A stretch of DNA of 41,084 nucleotides from Bacteroidota bacterium (GTDB lineage: Bacteria > Bacteroidota > Bacteroidia > Chitinophagales > Chitinophagaceae): the NCBI GenBank assembly GCA_003175935.1, contig PSRI01000008.1:1-41084 (forward strand), in the 5' to 3' direction. The notes beneath the pieces were generated by a model. It searched no databases and was not told where the DNA came from. It saw only the letters and a list, made by a program, of their open reading frames with translations. Both the position numbers and the translations under genes were made by a program. Positions within the stretch are counted from its first letter, which is position 1, and every line of letters begins with the position of its first letter. Positions 27,058 through 37,892 of this stretch are shown here, piece after piece.

Positions 27058-28728
27058 TTAATTCAACCATTTTCTGAATGCGAAATCTCCAAAAGTTTCC
27101 TGTAAATTTCTCTCTTTGCTATAAACCCCTAACAGCTGATCCAATTCGGATAAAATTCCTTCTTCGTTAAGATTCTCCTTATAAATCTTATTCAATCTTT
27201 TTCCTATTCTGTCCCCACCAAGGTATAAATTATATAACCCGTATGCGGTTCCTATGAATCCAATCTCGGCAATATAAGGTCTTGCACATCCATTGGGACA
27301 ACCAGTCATGCGAAGAATTATTTCTTCATTTCCCAAATTATATTTATCCAGGATAGGTTCGATCTTATTAATAAGTGTGGGCAAATATCTTTGCGCTTCA
27401 GCGAGTGCAAGCGGGCAGGTATTAAAAGCCACACAAGCCATTGCATTTCTTCTCAGCGCACGCGCTTTATCATTGTCTGCCTGCAAATGATACTTGCTTA
27501 ATATCGAATCAATTTCAGCTTTATCCTCATCAGCAATATCTGAAAGTATTAGATTTTGATTCGTTGTGAATCGAAAATTTGCTTTGCCGGTTTGAGCTAC
27601 TTCAAGTAATGCAGTTTTTAATGCCACATCCTGATCATCCCGAATCCTTCCATTCTCAATAAAAATGGTGAAATACCATTTGCCCTCATGATTTTGCTGC
27701 CAGCCGTAATAATCTTTCCTTTCAGTAAATTCATAAGGCTTCACCTTTTGAAGTGGATAACCATTTCTCTTGTCCAGCTCTGCCTTAAAATTATCAACTC
27801 CCATTTTGTCGAGCGTATATTTCAATCGCGACAATTTTCTGTCGCTCCTGTTTCCATAATCCCGCTGGATTGTAATAATATTATAAATGGTCTTCAGTAA
27901 TTTATCACCCGGTTCAGAAAATCCTATTTCAGTTCCCAACCTGGGATAAGTTTGCGCGTTACCGTGTGTAGTTCCTAAACCACCGCCAACAGCAATATTG
28001 AAACCTTTCAATTTTCCCTTTTCAACAATTGCAATCAACCCCAAATCGTTCCCAAAAACATCAACATCATTATTTGGTGGAATAACAATAGCAATCTTGA
28101 ATTTCCTTGGAAGGTATCTATCCTGGTATAAATCATCCGGCTCAGAGCTTTTGGTATCTGCCAGCGGTTGCTGGTCGAGCCACACTTCGTAATAGGCCCG
28201 GGTTTTGGGAAGCGCCATTTCACTAATGGTGCGAGCATACTGATAAATTTCTTCGTGTATCGGCGACTGTTTAGGATTAGCAGAGCATATCACGTTTCTA
28301 TTTACGTCGCCACAAGCCGCTATTGAATCGAGGTGAATTGTGTTAAACGACTTAATAGTTGGCTTGATATGAGATTTCAGGATGCCGTGCAATTGAATGG
28401 TTTGCCTCGTGGTAATCTTAATTACACCAGTAGAATGCTCACCCGCGATATGATGTAATTGAATCCATTGCTCCGGAGTCATAAAGCCGCCGGGCAATCT
28501 CAATCGAATCATAAATGAATACAACCATTCAAGCTTTTTTGCAGACCTTTCTTCCCTTCTGTCTCTGTCATCCTGTTGGTACATGCCATGAAACTTCACA
28601 AGCGCCTGATCATCTTCACGAAATGCTCCAGTGAGTTCATCATGCAAACTATCCTTCAAAGTGCCCCGCAGGCCCCTGCTTTGAGTTTTAATTCTTTCTG
28701 TTGGAGATAAATTGTTTTTGTCAGACAT
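27058..28728 (-). CDS. cysI: Sulfite reductase hemoprotein (beta) subunit
   Basis: The product has 556 residues, close to CysI length. The siroheme and 4Fe-4S ligands are visible in C-V-A-F-N-T-C-P-L-A-L-A-E-A and T-G-C-P-N-G-C-A-R-P; the partner loop R-Q-T-I-Q-L-H-G and the G-G-D-R-I-G-K-R-L and Y-K-E-N stretches agree with CysI. It reduces sulfite to sulfide using electrons from the flavoprotein gene just upstream (42-bp gap). Cofactor genes (CobA and the CysG-N fusion) flank the pair. It is cytoplasmic. Confidence 0.95.
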   Translation of the reverse strand: MSDKNNLSPTERIKTQSRGLRGTLKDSLHDELTGAFREDDQALVKFHGMYQQDDRDRREERSAKKLEWLYSFMIRLRLPGGFMTPEQWIQLHHIAGEHSTGVIKITTRQTIQLHGILKSHIKPTIKSFNTIHLDSIAACGDVNRNVICSANPKQSPIHEEIYQYARTISEMALPKTRAYYEVWLDQQPLADTKSSEPDDLYQDRYLPRKFKIAIVIPPNNDVDVFGNDLGLIAIVEKGKLKGFNIAVGGGLGTTHGNAQTYPRLGTEIGFSEPGDKLLKTIYNIITIQRDYGNRSDRKLSRLKYTLDKMGVDNFKAELDKRNGYPLQKVKPYEFTERKDYYGWQQNHEGKWYFTIFIENGRIRDDQDVALKTALLEVAQTGKANFRFTTNQNLILSDIADEDKAEIDSILSKYHLQADNDKARALRRNAMACVAFNTCPLALAEAQRYLPTLINKIEPILDKYNLGNEEIILRMTGCPNGCARPYIAEIGFIGTAYGLYNLYLGGDRIGKRLNKIYKENLNEEGILSELDQLLGVYSKERNLQETFGDFAFRKWLN

Positions 28729-28770
28729 ACAGTCAAATCGAATTTCCGTCTATAAAATCTTTTCTATTTC

Positions 28771-30465
28771 TTAATATACATCCTTTAAATACCTTCCTTC
28801 GTCTTTAAGTTGCTCGAGATACGCCAATGCATCAGCTTCAGATTTACCACCCTGTCTCGAAATAATTAGCAACAAAGTATTTTCTACATCCTTACTCATT
28901 GGCTCTTTCGCTCCGCATACATACAAATAAGCCCCGCCGCTCAACCAACTCCAAAATTCCTTCGAGTGTTCAAGCATTTTGTGCTGCACGTACACTTTCC
29001 ATTGTTGATCGCGACTGAATGCCAGGCTCACATTGCTCAGCACACCTGTCTGCACCCAATTTTGTATTTCAGTCTGATATAAAAAATCACTCGTAAAATG
29101 CTGGTCGCCGAAAAACAACCAGTTTCTTCCGGAGGCACCTGTAGCATCTCTTTGTGCAATGAAAGAACGGAAGGGTGCTATGCCAGTTCCCGGACCGATC
29201 ATAATCACATCCCTTTCGGGTGCAGGTAATTTAAACTGGAGATTCTTGTGAACATAAAATTCTAATTCGGTCTCTTCTTCAATTTTAGAAAGATACTCGG
29301 AGCAAAGTCCGAATTTCTCTTCTGCATTTACATTAAACTTGTCGAGGGCAACAGTAATATGCACTTCACCACTATGCGCCTCAGGTGAAGATGAAACAGA
29401 ATATAATCTTGGAACAATGGGCTCCAGGATTTCCAGTACTTTTTCAAACTGAGATTCGTCCTTCACCGGATAAATCCGCAGCAGATCCAATAAATCAATT
29501 CTTGTATCAGGAATTTCCTGCTTTACTATGGTAGAATATTTTTTGACAACACGCTCTGGCAGATGAACAATATTGAGTCGGTTTCCAAGAATTTGCTTCA
29601 AAGAAATTCTCTCCCCTTTATAATCAATTTGCGATTCGCCATCGGCACCTGCCAGTGCAAGAATATTGGTAACAATATCTTTTTTATTATGAGGAACGAT
29701 CCCGATAGAATCTCCGGGTTCATAATCTGCACCGTCTTCAATTGCCAATTCAATATGGTGCGTTTGTTTTCCAGAACCTGTGTCGTTCAGATTGGTATTC
29801 GAAATAACAATTCCCGAATAATTTTTCTTGTGTTTATGTTTTTTTGAAGCAGCAGGAACAGGCACGTTACCGTTCCCATCTGCCAAAACATTTAATACCT
29901 GGAAAAACCATGCATTCGCTTCTTCAGTATAGTCAGTGTCACATTTCTGAAGGGGAACAATCCTGGAAGCACCCAATTTTAGAAGTTGATGATCCACATC
30001 TTCTCCGGCCTTACAAAAAAGAGGGTATGATGTGTCTCCTAATGCGAGCACTCCAAATTTGAGTTTGTTCAGTGAAAGTTTATTCTGAAAAATATGATCG
30101 TAGAATTTCTTTGCAGTAGCAGGAGGTTCTCCATCGCCCTGAGTACTCATCACTATGAATAAATACTCTTCTTTAGGAAGATCATTCAGACGATATTGAT
30201 CTAATCCGGATAATTTTACATTCACTCCGGCCTTTTTTGCTTTTGCTGCAAATTCAGTCGCTAACTTTTTTGAGTTACCGGTTTCGGTTCCAAACAGTAC
30301 AGAAATCTTATTAACTTTTAGCCCTGGCGGAGCAACTTCAACTCCATTGCCATGCGATTCACCCAATACCAATCCAGCAAGGAATCCATTCATCCAGATC
30401 AATTCTTCCCGGGATGCATTAGTTATAAGTTCCTGAAATGTTTTCAACTTAGGCTCTGCTAACAT
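28771..30465 (-). CDS. cysJ: Sulfite reductase flavoprotein (alpha) subunit
   Basis: The product has 564 residues. After about 50 residues comes an FMN-binding flavodoxin domain (F-G-T-E-T-G-N-S at 58-65, then S-T-Q-G-D-G-E-P-P-A). It is followed by an FAD domain of the cytochrome P450 reductase type (P-R-L-Y-S-V-S-S-S) and an NADPH domain (G-P-G-T-G-I-A-P-F-R, Y-V-C-G-A-K). It passes electrons from NADPH to CysI. The start overlaps the cobA stop by 17 bp, indicating coupled translation. Confidence 0.95.
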   Translation of the reverse strand: MLAEPKLKTFQELITNASREELIWMNGFLAGLVLGESHGNGVEVAPPGLKVNKISVLFGTETGNSKKLATEFAAKAKKAGVNVKLSGLDQYRLNDLPKEEYLFIVMSTQGDGEPPATAKKFYDHIFQNKLSLNKLKFGVLALGDTSYPLFCKAGEDVDHQLLKLGASRIVPLQKCDTDYTEEANAWFFQVLNVLADGNGNVPVPAASKKHKHKKNYSGIVISNTNLNDTGSGKQTHHIELAIEDGADYEPGDSIGIVPHNKKDIVTNILALAGADGESQIDYKGERISLKQILGNRLNIVHLPERVVKKYSTIVKQEIPDTRIDLLDLLRIYPVKDESQFEKVLEILEPIVPRLYSVSSSPEAHSGEVHITVALDKFNVNAEEKFGLCSEYLSKIEEETELEFYVHKNLQFKLPAPERDVIMIGPGTGIAPFRSFIAQRDATGASGRNWLFFGDQHFTSDFLYQTEIQNWVQTGVLSNVSLAFSRDQQWKVYVQHKMLEHSKEFWSWLSGGAYLYVCGAKEPMSKDVENTLLLIISRQGGKSEADALAYLEQLKDEGRYLKDVY

Positions 30466-31303
30466 GTTCTTCCTGATTATTTTGTTTGATATCGTTTTTC
30501 AATGTGGCTACGGTCTTAAAATAATTTGCTCTGCTATCGCCATTTTGCAACCAAGCAAAAGATTCATGCAATCCAACCACCTTTCCAATTATTACGAGAG
30601 ATGGAGATTTCAATTTGATGCCCTGCAGTTTTTGATGGTATTCGTATACGCCACTCACCATCACCTGCTGCATCGGAGTAGTTGCCTGTTCAACTATTGC
30701 GACTTTTCTATCGTCTTTAACACCATATTTGATAAGGTTTGTAATAACGCCATCAATAGTTTCTGCAGACATATAAAACACCAGCGTATCATCAGTACCT
30801 GCCAATTCTTTCCAATAGGTATCTGTAACAATGTCCGACCGGTAATAAGTAAGAAACCGGACTGCAATAGCGTAATTTCTCGCAGTAAGCGGAATGCCCG
30901 AATATGCAGCAGCCCCTAATGCAGCCGTGATACCCGGAACAATCTCGTATGGAATTTGATGCTTCACCAGTTCTTCCAATTCATCGAACACATTGGAGAA
31001 AATACTTACATCACCGCCTTTCAACCGCACCACATATTTTCCTTTGCTGTAATGCTCAACAATCAATTCATTGATATATTCCTGGGGAGTAGAAAGTCCG
31101 GTCCTGCATTGTTTGCCAACATAAATCACTTCGGCATCCGCATTTACATATTCCTGCAAAATCACTTCACTAACAAGCCGGTCTGTCAATACCACGTCAG
31201 CTCTTTGCAGATGCCGAACGGCCTTCATGGTAATCAGCTCAGGATCTCCCGGACCCGCTCCGATTAGTATGACTTTGCCTTTATTGGTATTTCCTGTATT
31301 CAT
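30449..31303 (-). CDS. cobA: Uroporphyrinogen-III C-methyltransferase
   Basis: The product has 284 residues. The SAM-dependent methyltransferase signature G-A-G-P-G-D-P-E-L-I-T is at 15-25 and G-I-T-A-A-L-G-A-A-A-Y-S-G-I-P-L-T lies mid-protein. It converts uroporphyrinogen III to precorrin-2, which the CysG-N domain two genes on turns into siroheme for CysI. A TAGTCTA-type operator (31305-31327) ends 2 bp before the ATG. The 86-bp gap to cysN holds only this site, so cobA may be both an operon member and the first gene of a sub-operon. Confidence 0.94.
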   Translation of the reverse strand: MNTGNTNKGKVILIGAGPGDPELITMKAVRHLQRADVVLTDRLVSEVILQEYVNADAEVIYVGKQCRTGLSTPQEYINELIVEHYSKGKYVVRLKGGDVSIFSNVFDELEELVKHQIPYEIVPGITAALGAAAYSGIPLTARNYAIAVRFLTYYRSDIVTDTYWKELAGTDDTLVFYMSAETIDGVITNLIKYGVKDDRKVAIVEQATTPMQQVMVSGVYEYHQKLQGIKLKSPSLVIIGKVVGLHESFAWLQNGDSRANYFKTVATLKNDIKQNNQEEHVSRA

Positions 31304-31304
31304 T

Positions 31305-31327
31305 TAGTCTACTTTATTAGTAGGGTA
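31305..31327. promoter_or_regulatory. Putative sulfur-regulon operator, site C
   Basis: TAGTCTA (31305-31311), 9-bp spacer, TAGGGTA (31321-31327): the same layout as sites A, B and D with two changes in one arm. It begins 2 bp upstream of the cobA start codon, in the cysN-cobA gap. Confidence 0.6.
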
Positions 31328-31389
31328 TTTGTGCAAAAAAATTTATTCAGTTATACGCCTGTTTTTTAATTTTTTTCTCATGAAAATGA

Positions 31390-32631
31390 TTATTGAATCA
31401 TGCAAGCGCCGACGGTCACATTGCTTGTTTCATCAATCAGAATTGCTCCGCCATTTGCACGCAGCTCTTTATAAGTGTCGTATGACACCGGAGAAGCTGT
31501 TTTGATAGAGGCCCTCACGATATCATTGAGTTCTGCCTGGGCAGGGGAATATTTTTTCTCCAGACTATTAACATCGAGTTTATATTCCAGTTCTTTCACA
31601 ATCGCCCTAACTCTGGTGCTGTTAATCTGAAGCAGATATTTGTTTCCAGGTATCAATGGCTTATTATCCATCCAGCACAACAATACTTCCAGCTCATTGG
31701 ATATTTTTGGCTGATCTTTTCTGAGTGCAACAGTATCACCCCGACTGATATCAATATCATCTTCAAGTTGCATGATGATACTTTGTGGTGCAAATGCTTC
31801 GGGTACTGCGTTTCCCCCCAGTTCGAGAGATTTGATTTTACTATTCAAACCCGAAGGAATTAAGGTTACTTCATCCCCTACTTTATAAATCCCACTGATG
31901 ATTTTTCCTGCATAACCACGATAGTCGTGCAATTCTTCGGTTTGTGGACGAACAACATATTGAATCGGAAATCTTGCGTGTGTAAGGTCAATGTCCTGCT
32001 CCACATGAACGTCCTCCAGGAAATTCAGTAGTGGTTCCCCTTCATACCAGGAAAAATTAATGGATTTGGAAACAATATTATCGCCATTCAGCGCACTAAT
32101 TGGAATATAAGTAATCTCTTTCAGGCCCAGCGTTTTCGCAAGATCTGCATACTCGATCACGATGTTGTTATAAACATCCTGACTATAATTCACGAGATCC
32201 ATTTTATTAATGGCAACTACTACGTGAGGAATGTTCAGGAGTGAAGCAATGATGCTGTGTCTGCGAGTTTGTTCTACAACTCCATTTCTCGCATCAACCA
32301 AAATAATAATAAGGTCAGAATTTGATGCCCCCGTAACCATGTTGCGGGTATATTGAATATGCCCGGGTGCATCTGCAATTATGAATTTGCGTTTGGGGGT
32401 AGAAAAATATTTATAGGCAACATCAATGGTAATTCCCTGCTCGCGTTCTGCGCGCAAACCATCAGTAAGAAGTGCAAGATCAATTTCACCTTCATCCTTG
32501 TTCTTACTCTGCTTCTCAATAGCTTCCAGCTGATCGATCATAATACTCTTACTATCGTAGAGTAATCGACCGATTAACGTGCTTTTGCCATCGTCTACAC
32601 TTCCCGCAGTTATAAATCGCAACAGATCCAT
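31390..32631 (-). CDS. cysN: Sulfate adenylyltransferase subunit 1 (GTPase)
   Basis: The product has 413 residues and is an EF-Tu-like GTPase: G1 G-S-V-D-D-G-K-S at 10-17, G3 D-A-P-G-H at 87-91, G4 N-K-M-D at 142-145, followed by two beta-barrel domains. It drives ATP sulfurylase (CysD) to make APS from sulfate. It is a bare CysN without a fused APS kinase, shorter than the fused CysNC form, which fits the APS-reducing CysH upstream. Gap to cysD is 34 bp. Confidence 0.95.
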   Translation of the reverse strand: MDLLRFITAGSVDDGKSTLIGRLLYDSKSIMIDQLEAIEKQSKNKDEGEIDLALLTDGLRAEREQGITIDVAYKYFSTPKRKFIIADAPGHIQYTRNMVTGASNSDLIIILVDARNGVVEQTRRHSIIASLLNIPHVVVAINKMDLVNYSQDVYNNIVIEYADLAKTLGLKEITYIPISALNGDNIVSKSINFSWYEGEPLLNFLEDVHVEQDIDLTHARFPIQYVVRPQTEELHDYRGYAGKIISGIYKVGDEVTLIPSGLNSKIKSLELGGNAVPEAFAPQSIIMQLEDDIDISRGDTVALRKDQPKISNELEVLLCWMDNKPLIPGNKYLLQINSTRVRAIVKELEYKLDVNSLEKKYSPAQAELNDIVRASIKTASPVSYDTYKELRANGGAILIDETSNVTVGACMIQ

Positions 32632-32665
32632 TGAAAATTGGTATTGGTTGTTCTTAATCTAATTT

Positions 32666-33571
32666 TTAGAAATATCCATTTTTCTTACGGTCTTCCATAG
32701 CCGCTTCAGAAAATTTATCATCAATCCTTGTTTCACCGCGTTCACTGGTTTTTGTTGCAGTGATTTCACGGATAATATCATCAATATTAGTGGCATTTGA
32801 TTCCACTGCAGCTGTACATGTCATATCACCCACAGTACGATATCTCACTTTTTTATTTACGATGGAATCGCCTTCATCAATCCTGATAAATTCAGAAACA
32901 GCCACAAGTTGTCCTTCATGCTCCAGAACCTGTCTTTCATGAGCAAAATATATCGAAGGCAGATCTATTTTTTCTCTTCTTATGTAATTCCACACGTCCA
33001 GTTCGGTCCAGTTGCTAATCGGAAACACCCGCACATTTTCGCCCTTATTTATTTTTCCGTTATAAATGTTCCACAATTCGGGTCTTTGACGGCGTGGTTC
33101 CCATTGACCGAATTCATCACGAACGGAAAAAATTCTTTCTTTAGCGCGAGCTTTTTCTTCGTCTCTTCTAGCTCCGCCTATGCAGGCATCAAATTCAAAT
33201 TCCTGTATCGCATCAAGCAGCGTATAAGTTTGAAGCTGATTCCTGCTTGCAAATTTTCCTTTTTGTTCTGTGAGTTTTTTTGCGCGAATAGTATCTTCTA
33301 CTTTTCTAACAATCAACTTTTCTCCAATCCTTTCTGCCAACTGATCCCTGAAATCAAGTGCTTCAGGAAAATTATGACCCGTGTCTATATGTACTAATGG
33401 AAATGGAAATTTCCCCGGTCTGAAAGCTTTTAATGCTAAATGCACAAGTGTAATGGAATCCTTTCCACCACTAAACAGCAGGGCTGGCCTTTCAAATTGC
33501 CCGGCCACTTCACGAAATATGTGAATGGCTTCCGACTCCAACTGATCCAAATAGTCCAACTGATGACTCAT
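32666..33571 (-). CDS. cysD: Sulfate adenylyltransferase subunit 2
   Basis: The product has 301 residues, standard for CysD. The PP-loop S-G-G-K-D-S is at 34-39, followed by L-V-H-I-D-T-G-H-N-F-P-E and the typical R-R-D-E-E-K-A-R-A-K-E-R. It transfers AMP from ATP to sulfate, activated by CysN. It lies 5 bp after cysH, so the two are co-translated or nearly so. Confidence 0.96.
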   Translation of the reverse strand: MSHQLDYLDQLESEAIHIFREVAGQFERPALLFSGGKDSITLVHLALKAFRPGKFPFPLVHIDTGHNFPEALDFRDQLAERIGEKLIVRKVEDTIRAKKLTEQKGKFASRNQLQTYTLLDAIQEFEFDACIGGARRDEEKARAKERIFSVRDEFGQWEPRRQRPELWNIYNGKINKGENVRVFPISNWTELDVWNYIRREKIDLPSIYFAHERQVLEHEGQLVAVSEFIRIDEGDSIVNKKVRYRTVGDMTCTAAVESNATNIDDIIREITATKTSERGETRIDDKFSEAAMEDRKKNGYF

Positions 33572-33576
33572 AACTG

Positions 33577-34335
33577 CTATCCGTTAATAGTTTTAATTTC
33601 TTCTATTGAATTCTCCACTTCATGAACATGTAATCCGCACTCTTTCTTACTTGCATCTTCCCACCACCATCTTCCGGCTCTGAAATCTTCACCGGCTCTT
33701 ATCGCTCTTGTGCATGGTGCACATCCGATACTCACGAACCCTTTATCATGAAGTGGGTTGTAAGGAATATTATATTCATCTATCAAAGCCCGAACTTGTT
33801 TGGTATCCCAATTCAGCAGAGGATGATATTTAATGATATTGTTAGTTGCATCCCATTCTACCTGATCTGTATTTATTCTTTCAGGAGAATGTTCTGCACG
33901 AATGCCCGTGATCCAGAGCTTTTTGTCTTTAATGGCTCTTTGTAAAGGTTCCACTTTACGAATGAAACAGCATTGTTTGCGATTTTCAACTGATTCGTAA
34001 AAACTATTTGGACCTTTTTCTGCAACAAATTTCTGCAATGAATTTGCCTGAGGATAATATGCGATAATGGGCTGTCCGTATTTTTCTAAAGTTCTCGTCC
34101 ACGTAGAATAAGTCTCAGGAAATAATCTTCCAGTATCCAACGTGAAAACTTCGATATCTAACTTTTCAGAAAAAATAAAATGTGTGATGAGCTGGTCTTC
34201 GAAACTAAAGCTGGAAGAAAAAACGGCCTGACCAGGAAATTTTTCACTGATCCTCCTGAGATTAGTAACAATTTCGGGGGAGCTTGTAAGTAGTATTGTT
34301 TCCTGTATTTCGCTTTGATGGACCTTTTGAGACAT
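33577..34335 (-). CDS. cysH: Assimilatory adenylyl-sulfate (APS) reductase
   Basis: The product has 252 residues. Besides the PAPS-reductase-like PP fold (S-S-S-F-S-F-E-D and L-D-T-G-R-L-F-P-E), it has Cys122-Cys123 and Cys205-x2-Cys208, the four ligands of the 4Fe-4S cluster that marks APS rather than PAPS reductases, and the catalytic Cys233 in K-E-C-G-L-H. It makes sulfite from APS with thioredoxin as reductant. No APS kinase gene is present in the cluster, in agreement. It is the first structural gene of the cys operon and is preceded by the Cys6 leader ORF. Confidence 0.95.
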   Translation of the reverse strand: MSQKVHQSEIQETILLTSSPEIVTNLRRISEKFPGQAVFSSSFSFEDQLITHFIFSEKLDIEVFTLDTGRLFPETYSTWTRTLEKYGQPIIAYYPQANSLQKFVAEKGPNSFYESVENRKQCCFIRKVEPLQRAIKDKKLWITGIRAEHSPERINTDQVEWDATNNIIKYHPLLNWDTKQVRALIDEYNIPYNPLHDKGFVSIGCAPCTRAIRAGEDFRAGRWWWEDASKKECGLHVHEVENSIEEIKTING

Positions 34336-34356
34336 ATTTCAATTCATTGACGGGGC

Positions 34357-34395
34357 AAAAACATCGTTGTGAAGTAAGATTATTATCTACAACAA
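34357..34395 (-). terminator. Candidate attenuator hairpin overlapping the Cys codons of the cysH leader
   Basis: On the minus strand TTGTTGT (34395 to 34389, within the last three Cys codons) can pair with ACAACGA (34370 to 34364): seven pairs, one of them U-G. An inner AGAT/ATCT stem lies in the loop and TGTTTTTG follows (five T at 34361-34357). It is modest in strength, but its 5' arm is exactly where a Cys-starved ribosome would sit. Inference. Confidence 0.4.
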
Positions 34396-34430
34396 CAGCA
34401 ACAACAACTATATAAATGCTTTTTTACCAT
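34383..34430 (-). CDS. Polycysteine leader peptide of the cys operon (MVKKHLYSCCCCCCR)
   Basis: An ATG at 34430 on the minus strand opens 15 codons ending in TAA; residues 9-14 are six consecutive cysteines (TGT TGT TGC TGT TGT TGT, 34406 down to 34389). It begins about 30 nt after the predicted transcription start, is the first ORF of the transcript, and ends 47 bp before cysH. Six Cys codons in a row directly ahead of the operon that makes the sulfide for cysteine is the signature of an amino-acid attenuation leader peptide, as in trp and his leaders; polycysteine ORFs with this job are known in mycobacteria. The codons are seen directly; translation and stalling are inferred. Confidence 0.85.
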   Translation of the reverse strand: MVKKHLYSCCCCCCR

Positions 34431-34444
34431 CAAAGCGATTTTAA

Positions 34445-34467
34445 TACTCTATTAAAGTGGTAGACAA
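34445..34467. promoter_or_regulatory. Putative sulfur-regulon operator, site D (cysH leader promoter)
   Basis: TACTCTA (34445-34451), 9-bp spacer, TAGACAA (34461-34467): one mismatch per arm from the perfect sites A and B, same spacing. It overlaps the end of the -7 element and covers the expected transcription start, a typical repressor position. Confidence 0.6.
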
Positions 34468-34472
34468 ATATA
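34465..34472 (-). promoter_or_regulatory. Promoter -7 element for the cysHDN leader
   Basis: TATATTTG on the minus strand is an exact match to TAnnTTTG. It places the start of transcription near 34458, within operator site D and about 30 nt before the polycysteine leader ORF. Confidence 0.55.
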
Positions 34473-34706: not shown

Positions 34707-34726
34707 CACCAGTTCTTTGCAAAAAT

Positions 34727-34844
34727 ACTTATCAAGAAAGGCTGAGGGACTGGCCCAATGAAGCCTTGACAACCTGATCTTCCTCTAAAAACGGAAGAAA
34801 AAGGTGCCAATTCCAGTCTCGCTTAAATGCGGGAACAGATAAGT
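34727..34844 (+). promoter_or_regulatory. SAM-I (S-box) riboswitch
   Basis: P1 is formed by ACTTATC (34727-34733) and GATAAGT (34838-34844). Between them are the core S-box blocks in order: CTGAGGGACTGGCCCAATGA, then a GACAACCTG block, a P3 hairpin (TCTTCC with GGAAGA), AAGGTGCCAATTCC, and a P4 hairpin (TCTCGC with GCGGGA). The RNA binds S-adenosylmethionine and shuts off downstream genes. It precedes the trans-sulfuration gene at 35047. Confidence 0.95.
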
Positions 34845-34898
34845 CTGAAGAAAGCTTCATACTATTATACCTTATTATATAGAGCTCTTCTGATGACT
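34842..34898 (+). other. Candidate antiterminator of the SAM riboswitch
   Basis: GAAGAAAGCT (34847-34856) can pair with AGCTCTTC (34883-34890) with one bulged base, and AGTC (34842-34845) with GACT (34895-34898). This uses the P1 3' strand and the terminator 5' arm, so it excludes both, as expected for an S-box OFF switch. Inference from base pairing by eye. Confidence 0.5.
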
Positions 34899-34919
34899 AT
34901 CGGAAGAGCTTTTTTATTT
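34883..34919 (+). terminator. Intrinsic terminator of the SAM riboswitch
   Basis: AGCTCTTC (34883-34890) pairs with GAAGAGCT (34903-34910), extended inward by TGAT/ATCG to a 12-pair stem with a GACT loop, then a T-rich run. It is the expression platform for the switch. Confidence 0.9.
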
Positions 34920-35046: not shown

Positions 35047-36249
35047 ATGTTTAACATGCAAACCAACACAAAACTTATCCATTCAATTCCTGTCGACGAA
35101 CTGACAGGTGCTATCAGTGTGCCCATTTATCAAACTTCCACTTATGTACAGGAAGCGCCGGGTATCAACAAGGGTTTCGACTATTCACGCACTAATAATC
35201 CAACCAGGGCAACGCTTGAGTCTTTAATCGCCACACTGGAAGAAGGCGCTGTTGGTGCTGCATTTGGTAGCGGACTCGCTGCTATTGATGCCGTGGTAAA
35301 ATTATTGCAAAGTGGAGATGAAATCATTGCGGTAGATGACATCTACGGTGGTGCTTTCCGGTTATTTACCCAGGTTTATGAAAAATTCGGCATCACTGTA
35401 AAATATGTTGACTCAACAGAAGCAGAAAACATATTTGAAGCCATTACTCCTAAAACCAAATTGATCTGGATCGAAACGCCAACGAATCCAACACTCAAAA
35501 TTTCTGATATCAGGGCTATTGCGAAAATTGCAAAGGCCAATCGATGTTTACTTTGCGTGGATAATACTTTTGCTTCACCCGCCCTTCAAAAGCCTCTCAC
35601 ACTGGGAGCTGATATTGTAATTCACAGTGCAACAAAATACCTGGGCGGACATAGCGACCTTATTGCGGGATTGGTTGTGGCAGCAGATCCAACTATTGGA
35701 GCACAAATAAAATTCCTTCAAAATGCTTCGGGTGCAATACTTGGACCATTCGATAGCTGGCTGGTAATTCGGGGCATTGAAACTTTGCCTGTCAGGGTGA
35801 AAGAACATTGCCGAAATGCGGAAATTGTCGCTGAATTTCTGAATAACCATCCTGCCGTTAGTAAAGTCTATTATCCCGGACTTTCATCACATAAAAACCA
35901 TGAGATTGCCACAAAACAATCAAAGGGATTTGGTGGAATTGTTTCATTCTCATTGAAAAATGACACACAGGAGGCCGCTTTTGAATTCGTGAAATCGACT
36001 CAATTGTTTAAACTGGCTGAAAGTTTAGGAGGAGTAAAGAGCCTGCTTTGCCATCCCGCGAGCATGACTCATAAAACTATTCCAGAGGAAAAAAGAAGAG
36101 CTGCAGGAGTATCGGATAGTCTCATCCGTTTGAGTGTTGGTTTGGAAGACGCTGAAGATTTAGTCCGTGATATTGAACTTGCTCTGGAGAAAATTGAAAA
36201 TTCAACCAGGCAAAAATCTGAATTAAAGAAAGAAATTATTGTTGGATAA
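35047..36249 (+). CDS. metB: Cystathionine gamma-synthase-like PLP enzyme
   Basis: The product has 400 residues of the Cys/Met-metabolism PLP family: Y-S-R-T-N-N-P-T-R, I-E-T-P-T-N-P-T, the PLP Lys in H-S-A-T-K-Y-L-G-G-H-S-D, and R-L-S-V-G-L-E near the end. The family cannot be split into gamma-synthase and gamma-lyase with certainty by eye; placement directly under a SAM-I riboswitch favours a biosynthetic role joining cysteine to acyl-homoserine. A second ATG at 35056 (M-Q-T-N-T-K-L-I-H-S) may be the true start. A 13-bp palindrome, GCGATTCAATCGC, lies at 35026-35038 just before it. Confidence 0.88.
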   Translation: MFNMQTNTKLIHSIPVDELTGAISVPIYQTSTYVQEAPGINKGFDYSRTNNPTRATLESLIATLEEGAVGAAFGSGLAAIDAVVKLLQSGDEIIAVDDIYGGAFRLFTQVYEKFGITVKYVDSTEAENIFEAITPKTKLIWIETPTNPTLKISDIRAIAKIAKANRCLLCVDNTFASPALQKPLTLGADIVIHSATKYLGGHSDLIAGLVVAADPTIGAQIKFLQNASGAILGPFDSWLVIRGIETLPVRVKEHCRNAEIVAEFLNNHPAVSKVYYPGLSSHKNHEIATKQSKGFGGIVSFSLKNDTQEAAFEFVKSTQLFKLAESLGGVKSLLCHPASMTHKTIPEEKRRAAGVSDSLIRLSVGLEDAEDLVRDIELALEKIENSTRQKSELKKEIIVG

Positions 36250-36334: not shown

Positions 36335-36469
36335 ATGGAAATCAACACCGCTAATTTTATGCTGTACATGACTACTGGAATGAGTACAGCACCCACCTTC
36401 GAAATATCAGACGTCCCCGCTGAGCAACCGGTACAATGTTGCTGTTGTATGCCGCAAGGCATGCTTTAG
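36335..36469 (+). CDS. 44-residue small ORF with Cys4 run, candidate metY leader peptide
   Basis: ATG at 36335 to TAG at 36469. Residues 35-38 are four consecutive cysteines (TGT TGC TGT TGT, 36437-36448), followed by only M-P-Q-G-M-L before the stop. It lies in the 317-bp gap between metB and metY. The Cys run near the 3' end of a short ORF, ahead of a sulfur gene and with a terminator-like hairpin downstream, repeats the plan of the cysH leader. AGCAAC (36423-36428) and GTTGCT (36438-36443) can pair across the first Cys codons. A working Cys-rich miniprotein (metal or thiol binding) is the alternative reading. Not a family I recognise. Confidence 0.72.
   Translation: MEINTANFMLYMTTGMSTAPTFEISDVPAEQPVQCCCCMPQGML
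36447..36464 (+). other. Small GNRA-loop hairpin at the end of the Cys4 ORF
   Basis: GTATGCC (36447-36453) pairs with GGCATGC (36458-36464), one G-U pair, closing a GCAA tetraloop. It overlaps the last Cys codon, so a stalled ribosome would melt or mask it. Confidence 0.55.

Positions 36470-36497: not shown

Positions 36498-37892
<1,395 letters not shown>

Follow-up and report, generated by a model that had tools for sequence, protein, structure and literature searches.

Cysteine-codon leaders before sulfur genes of a Chitinophagaceae bacterium suggest ribosome-mediated attenuation of sulfate assimilation

Why should a sulfate-assimilation operon be preceded by a very short open reading frame (ORF) that devotes six consecutive codons to cysteine, the end product of the pathway? 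The question is raised by the cysH locus of a Bacteroidota bacterium of the family Chitinophagaceae (GenBank assembly GCA_003175935.1, contig PSRI01000008.1). The locus lies in the stretch of 41,084 nucleotides analysed here, which is called the window. The leader ORF, MVKKHLYSCCCCCCR followed by a TAA stop, has 15 codons as read from the sequence (ATG GTA AAA AAG CAT TTA TAT AGT TGT TGT TGC TGT TGT TGT AGA TAA). It ends 47 nt before the cysH ATG at 34335 (Table 1). An earlier annotation, the sequence-only reading, had reported the six-Cys-codon run in a 15-codon ORF at this distance from cysH, and its coordinates and sequence proved exact on re-reading. It had also interpreted the ORF as part of a ribosome-mediated attenuator. 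This interpretation is supported by conservation of the leader in the family, by two further leaders before sulfur genes and by the terminator behind the cysM leader. Very probably, the cysH leader senses cysteine for a ribosome-mediated attenuator that controls the cysH-cysD-cysN-siroheme-cysJ-cysI operon.

The locus has the sequence features of a leader-peptide attenuator. A short ORF with consecutive end-product codons stands at what the promoter box indicates to be the head of the transcript. The downstream genes (cysH, cysD, cysN, a siroheme methyltransferase gene, a cysJ-like gene and cysI) make that amino acid, and their NCBIfam matches define a sulfate-to-sulfide pathway. Across relatives the codon run is conserved and its flanks vary. 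A Bacteroidetes-type -7 box read from the sequence would place the transcript start near 34458, and its position, the only basis for placing the start, implies a 5' UTR of about 28 nt before the leader AUG.

Table 1. Positions of the cysH and metY leader features in the window, with the Flavobacterium leaders used for comparison
Feature	Position	Strand	Basis or remark
Promoter region	34448..34472	-	-7 type box TATATTTG (34472-34465) running into imperfect palindrome TCTACCACTTTAATAGA (34464-34448)
Leader start segment UCGCUUUGAUGG	34427..34438	-	5' strand of long-range helix with cysH start
cysH leader ORF	34383..34430	-	Sequence; Cys run kept, flanks variable in relatives
Six consecutive Cys codons of cysH leader	34406-34389	-	Read from sequence
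Leader-cysH gap	34336..34382	-	Terminator-free; candidate rut region by position in relatives; mildly C>G here
CCGUCAA before the cysH AUG, 3' partner of UUGAUGG in the leader	34347..34353	-	Conserved pairing
CCAUCAAAGCGA, cysH codons 5-9	34310..34321	-	Alternative 12-bp partner of leader start
cysH, phosphoadenylyl/adenylyl-sulfate reductase, first operon gene	33577..34335	-	NCBIfam NF002537 above cut-off
cysD, cysN, uroporphyrinogen-III C-methyltransferase (siroheme), cysJ-like flavoprotein, cysI	27058..33571	-	NCBIfam matches
metY leader MEINTANFMLYMTTGMSTAPTFEISDVPAEQPVQCCCCMPQGML, Cys4	36335..36469	+	Before O-acetylhomoserine/O-acetylserine sulfhydrylase gene at 36567
AUGCC-GCAA-GGCAU hairpin, GNRA-type loop, straight after metY-leader Cys codons	36449..36462	+	Read from sequence and relatives
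Flavobacterium tandem cysH leaders (L135, L147, L158)	Upstream of cysH		Terminator per leader

The palindrome that directly follows the -7 box recurs in the family. At least 8 of the 10 positions of TCTAC-N7-GTAGA are matched at 27 of 41 family cysH leaders, with a mean of 8.07 vs 6.39 in shuffles. In the form TCTACY-N5-RGTAGA, it directly follows a -7 box TAnnTTTG upstream of 27 of the 41. The palindrome is likely an operator for a transcription factor, namely a sulfur regulator; that an Rrf2/CymR-like protein binds it is only a guess.

The sequence-only reading had proposed to look in related Chitinophagaceae for a Cys-run ORF with variable flanks before cysH, and had named its absence from close relatives as evidence that would count against attenuation. 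cysH was searched in 149 genomes of the family, and 89 upstream regions were read. A Cys-run leader ORF precedes cysH in 40 of the 57 closest family orthologues; among the 32 more distant orthologues, 1 has it. These genomes share ancestry and do not count as independent events. The idea thus survived the comparison, with approximately 30% of the closest orthologues having no detectable leader. The set of 41 leaders was picked partly by Cys doublets and is slightly generous; the strict count, of ATG-started short ORFs with at least three consecutive Cys residues (CCC), is 34 of the 89 regions. The leaders end 36-134 nt before cysH. Their flanking residues, their length, and the number and spacing of their Cys residues vary, and the Cys run is kept. 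In a leader of the same genus, MDMKHWKYCCCYCCCR, many flanking residues differ around a retained Cys run. Further examples from the family are MTYQTIYCCCCCFC, MEKMKKYMCCCCCCR, MIINTNTTSMIFTCCNSCCCC and MFRSHAIQIMYISCCNKYCCC.

The Cys-run leader before cysH is more than chance. Dinucleotide shuffles of the 89 regions gave a mean of 0.21 CCC ORFs (maximum 2), and their antisense strand gave 0. Upstream regions of other genes gave 3 in 349. Among same-residue runs in the 89 regions, the next amino acid was Leu with 8, about four times rarer than Cys. Sense tracts of (TGY)3 or longer were in frame with an upstream ATG in 38 of 39 cases, and the antisense strand held only one tract. The leader stop codon directly follows 17 of these 38 in-frame tracts. 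Both Cys codons are used in the tracts (TGT:TGC = 155:61).

Such runs are also rare in the genome itself. In the 4.43 Mb of assembly searched, from a genome that is only 87% complete, (TGY)5 or longer occurs at three places: the cysH leader, the leader of a cysM-like gene on contig C239, and a stretch opposite the Gln codons of a coding ORF. Lowering the threshold to (TGY)4 added one intergenic case, the metY leader in the same window; the other (TGY)4 places with an assigned locus are mostly inside or opposite long coding frames. A fourth candidate, at C198:15987 and close to the end of its contig, was rejected as a plain low-complexity simple repeat. Most other (TGY)6 matches across the family were likewise set aside, since they overlap a coding frame on either strand or their surroundings are not those of a leader.

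The genome thus has two extra Cys leaders, and both stand before sulfur genes. A Cys-run ORF precedes metY in most of 30 family relatives. Many of these leaders end in CC-x-CCMP, and an AUGCC-GNAA-GGCAU hairpin is often found at the stop codon. When the hairpin pattern TGYTGYATGCCGNAAGGCAT was searched in 296 genomes of the phylum, only this genome matched; the pattern is too strict to judge distribution. The cysM leader, MINRSNLIICCCCCCCTTDSTGMRVDEIPVYR, precedes a gene for a cysM-like cysteine synthase, which has 11 matches in the family with E values under 1e-60. In all 10 of these whose upstream region is readable, a poly-Cys leader and then an intrinsic terminator were found; a typical leader-terminator sequence is AGCTCCACC...GGTGGAGCTTTTTT. 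GGUGG after the Cys codons is invariant and complementary to the CCACC arm of the terminator in nearly all of them. In the cysM leader of L186, the terminator arm is changed and the match of the leader is only partly kept. From complementarity and position, we infer that GGUGG acts as the antiterminator. In equilibrium folding of the cysM leader, the terminator won in every state and did not yield to an antiterminator. The switch went unseen because nested folding cannot see a loop-to-arm (pseudoknot) antiterminator. As the same sensor stands before cysH, metY and the cysM-like gene, three or more operons probably answer to a single cysteine signal.

How would the cysH leader act on its operon? 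Under a shortage of Cys-tRNA(Cys), a ribosome translating the leader would stall at its terminal Cys run, and the operon would be expressed. With ample cysteine, the ribosome would go on to the stop codon and leave, and expression would be cut. An intrinsic terminator, as in the classical trp type, was found at the cysM leader and at some cysH leaders of Flavobacterium and Saprospiraceae. In the window, there is no intrinsic terminator between leader and cysH. At relatives' cysH leaders, only weak matches were found, the majority lying within leader ORFs and one lying in a gap. Since cysH lacks a terminator, control behind the sensor is probably exerted by Rho or on translation.

The composition of the leader-gene gap bears on the first of these. 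RNA that is unstructured, poor in G and richer in C than in G is used as a mark of Rho-loading sites (PMC9426467). After the leader stop codon, this is the picture at family level: in the 41 leader-cysH gaps the fractions are C 0.23 and G 0.11, C exceeds G in 40 of 41, and folding of the family leaders shows the gap to be less structured than shuffles. The C-G skew of +0.126 compares with +0.006 in 142 control upstream regions (p about 1e-13) and with +0.019 before leaderless cysH genes. The skew begins at the leader stop codon and fades approximately 60 nt into cysH. The metY leaders of the family have no terminator either, and the gaps between them and their gene likewise have C above G (18 of 19). 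Rho-dependent attenuation is favoured because the gap has this composition and lack of structure and because Rho is encoded in the genome. Rho would load on the C-rich gap once the ribosome has bared it and would end transcription before or early in cysH, and a ribosome parked on the Cys codons beside the stop codon would deny Rho its site. The Rho step is uncertain: with 10 C and 6 G, the window's own 47-nt gap has only a weak excess of C, and a stalled ribosome would shield no more than a part of such a gap. A further weak point is that the later mycobacterial work on poly-Cys short ORFs reportedly preferred hidden ribosome sites. We consider a Rho-dependent output at cysH to have about an even chance.

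Translational control behind the same sensor is the strongest rival. The leader start or the Cys tract would pair with the cysH start and hide it, and a stalled ribosome would separate the two. A 12-bp pairing joins the window's leader start to codons 5-9 of cysH (z -5.4 vs shuffles). Leader UUGAUGG also pairs with CCGUCAA upstream of the cysH AUG, the codon 5-9 match being the stronger. A core helix of UUGAUGG with C(C/U)AUCAA, the latter shortly before the cysH AUG, is kept in the sequences of 12 close relatives, which were picked by eye, a choice that favours the helix. Within one genus, both partners of a pair in this helix have changed, from A-U to G-C. The distance from the AUG to the first Cys codon, 22-28 nt in the window's close clade, also fits this mechanism. 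However, the covariation is moderate, its score being reached by 23 of 500 shuffles. Shifting the columns of the helix alignment by one or two destroys the pairing, and a shift of three leaves 67%. Across the 41 family leaders, pairing between leader start and cysH start has a median swap rank of 0.28 and is significant only in the window's close clade. Moreover, nested folding under the stalling model predicts a small opening of the cysH start (unpaired 0.51 to 0.59), and the gap has less structure than expected where more would have been in favour. Translational control in place of Rho is rather unlikely; in the window's clade, start-start pairing probably adds translational repression to the Rho step or replaces it. 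The (UGU)n tract was also considered as a general anti-ribosome-site element that pairs with the cysH start; this was rejected as not significant, with a mean z of -0.17 to -0.28 over the 41 leaders, although by eye such pairing looked attractive in L028 and L051. Counting against the sensor reading as such, the cysH upstream regions of two relatives, L010 and L219, have lost the Cys run through an inserted, self-complementary repeat and retain the leader start and its pairing partner.

The two other rivals deny the leader its role as a ribosome sensor. The intact ORF does encode a Cys-rich peptide, which could act as a small metal- or redox-binding protein. Yet only the Cys run is kept across the variation in length, flanks, and Cys number and spacing described above. 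Such ORFs also stand specifically before cysH, metY and cysM-like genes, and the RNA downstream forms a terminator in the cysM leaders, which makes a function as protein very improbable. A functionless TGY trinucleotide repeat expanded by slippage would account for the simple repeat, as at C198 in the same genome, but it is scarcely credible given the frame, the near absence of antisense tracts, the mixture of TGT and TGC, the rarity of the next run type, and the in-frame, in-place conservation before the same genes across genera, which was looked for and found.

Cys-codon leaders also occur outside the family and differ in what follows the Cys codons. Flavobacterium humi, F. limnosediminis and F. 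urocaniciphilum have two serial Met/Cys leaders before cysH, each followed by a terminator. One tandem example is MTNQVLNMMMCMCCPNQGEVFAIR, followed by a leader with CMMMMCCM; in L147, one of the two terminators was listed by the terminator scan and the other was read by eye. A Saprospiraceae metagenome-assembled genome (MAG) has one cysH leader with a terminator. In Rufibacter ruber, a C-terminal Cys run in the cysH leader is followed by a C-rich gap. A Mucilaginibacter MAG has a C-terminal Cys run and a C-rich gap before a gene other than cysH; this leader, MKIFKHFHTLKPMRMGYSISPSFRYCCCCCCC (L107:6128-6226, plus strand), precedes a gene for a secreted, possibly porin-like protein near cysH. 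Among the sampled cysH genes of Mucilaginibacter, Pedobacter, Sphingobacterium and Chryseobacterium, most have no leader directly upstream.

Poly-Cys leaderless short ORFs reportedly occur at six loci in M. smegmatis, and work on mycobacteria is said to favour hidden ribosome sites as their mode of action. That Cys-codon leaders are known in mycobacteria, as the sequence-only reading had stated, is borne out by the leader peptides described for cys/cbs operons of mycobacteria and other actinobacteria (Seliverstov 2005, PMC1262725). Rho-dependent attenuation has already been guessed for mycobacterial cys operons (PMC1262725). Control by mycobacterial poly-Cys short ORFs has been termed translation attenuation (PMC13236596), and work on the leaderless ones (Canestrari 2020, doi 10.1111/mmi.14498) is cited in PMC9094748 and PMC13236596. 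The cysH leaders resemble the actinobacterial ones in the Cys run near the stop of a short first ORF before sulfate or cysteine genes, in the lack of a terminator, in the pyrimidine-rich gap and in the several loci per genome. They differ in phylum and in being known here from sequence alone. The mycobacterial short ORFs are leaderless, whereas the cysH leader probably does not stand at the very 5' end of its transcript, and one locus here, the cysM-like one, uses an intrinsic terminator. The uORFC-8-2 motif before cysS of Rhodobacterales, with tandem Cys codons in a short ORF and then a terminator (PMC8632094), is similar to the cysM-type leader on C239. It differs in controlling Cys-tRNA synthetase, in having two Cys codons and in belonging to alphaproteobacteria.

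The trp, his and leu leader-peptide attenuators also use a codon run for the pathway product; unlike them, cysH here has no intrinsic terminator. In E. coli tnaC, which is Rho-dependent, a ribosome parked near the leader end determines whether Rho can reach an unstructured stretch with C>G. A parked leader ribosome governs Rho access to such a stretch in Bordetella CruR as well (PMC9426467). The cysH leader may share this mechanism. In tnaC and CruR, tryptophan or copper causes the stall by way of the nascent peptide, whereas hungry codons are proposed to cause it in the cysH leader.

The leaders may belong to one Bacteroidota cysteine circuit in which hungry Cys codons are read by several output stages, together with the conserved promoter palindrome. 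The stages would be Rho-type C>G gaps at cysH and metY, intrinsic terminators at cysM and at the tandem Met/Cys leaders of Flavobacterium, and start-start pairing in the window's clade. We propose this circuit, and equally this set of stages taken jointly, tentatively and at slightly less than even chances. The sequence-only reading knew of no Cys-codon leader in Bacteroidota, and we found no report of one in the open-access literature. Leader-peptide attenuators were already suspected in the phylum, as F. psychrophilum has candidates before amino-acid operons, and the main text of that study names no cysteine leader (PMC9723704). Priority is uncertain because the details of those attenuators sit in its supplements. 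As far as checked, Cys-codon attenuation would be new for the phylum, its principle being already known from mycobacteria. It would extend to a major phylum in which little is known of cysteine control, with clear predictions for culturable hosts. Several unlinked operons are apparently tied to one ribosome signal, and intrinsic, Rho-type and translational outputs behind one sensor offer a natural comparison.

A search of Rfam returned nothing above the gathering score at the cysH leader locus except a SAM riboswitch on the opposite strand, and no other family at the loci of six relatives. This SAM-I riboswitch (RF00162, 82.6 bits) lies at 34726-34845 on the plus strand, with a terminator at 34881-34912. 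It precedes a divergent gene of the cystathionine gamma-synthase/lyase type at 35047. Neighbouring sulfur operons thus use a riboswitch and leader peptides side by side.
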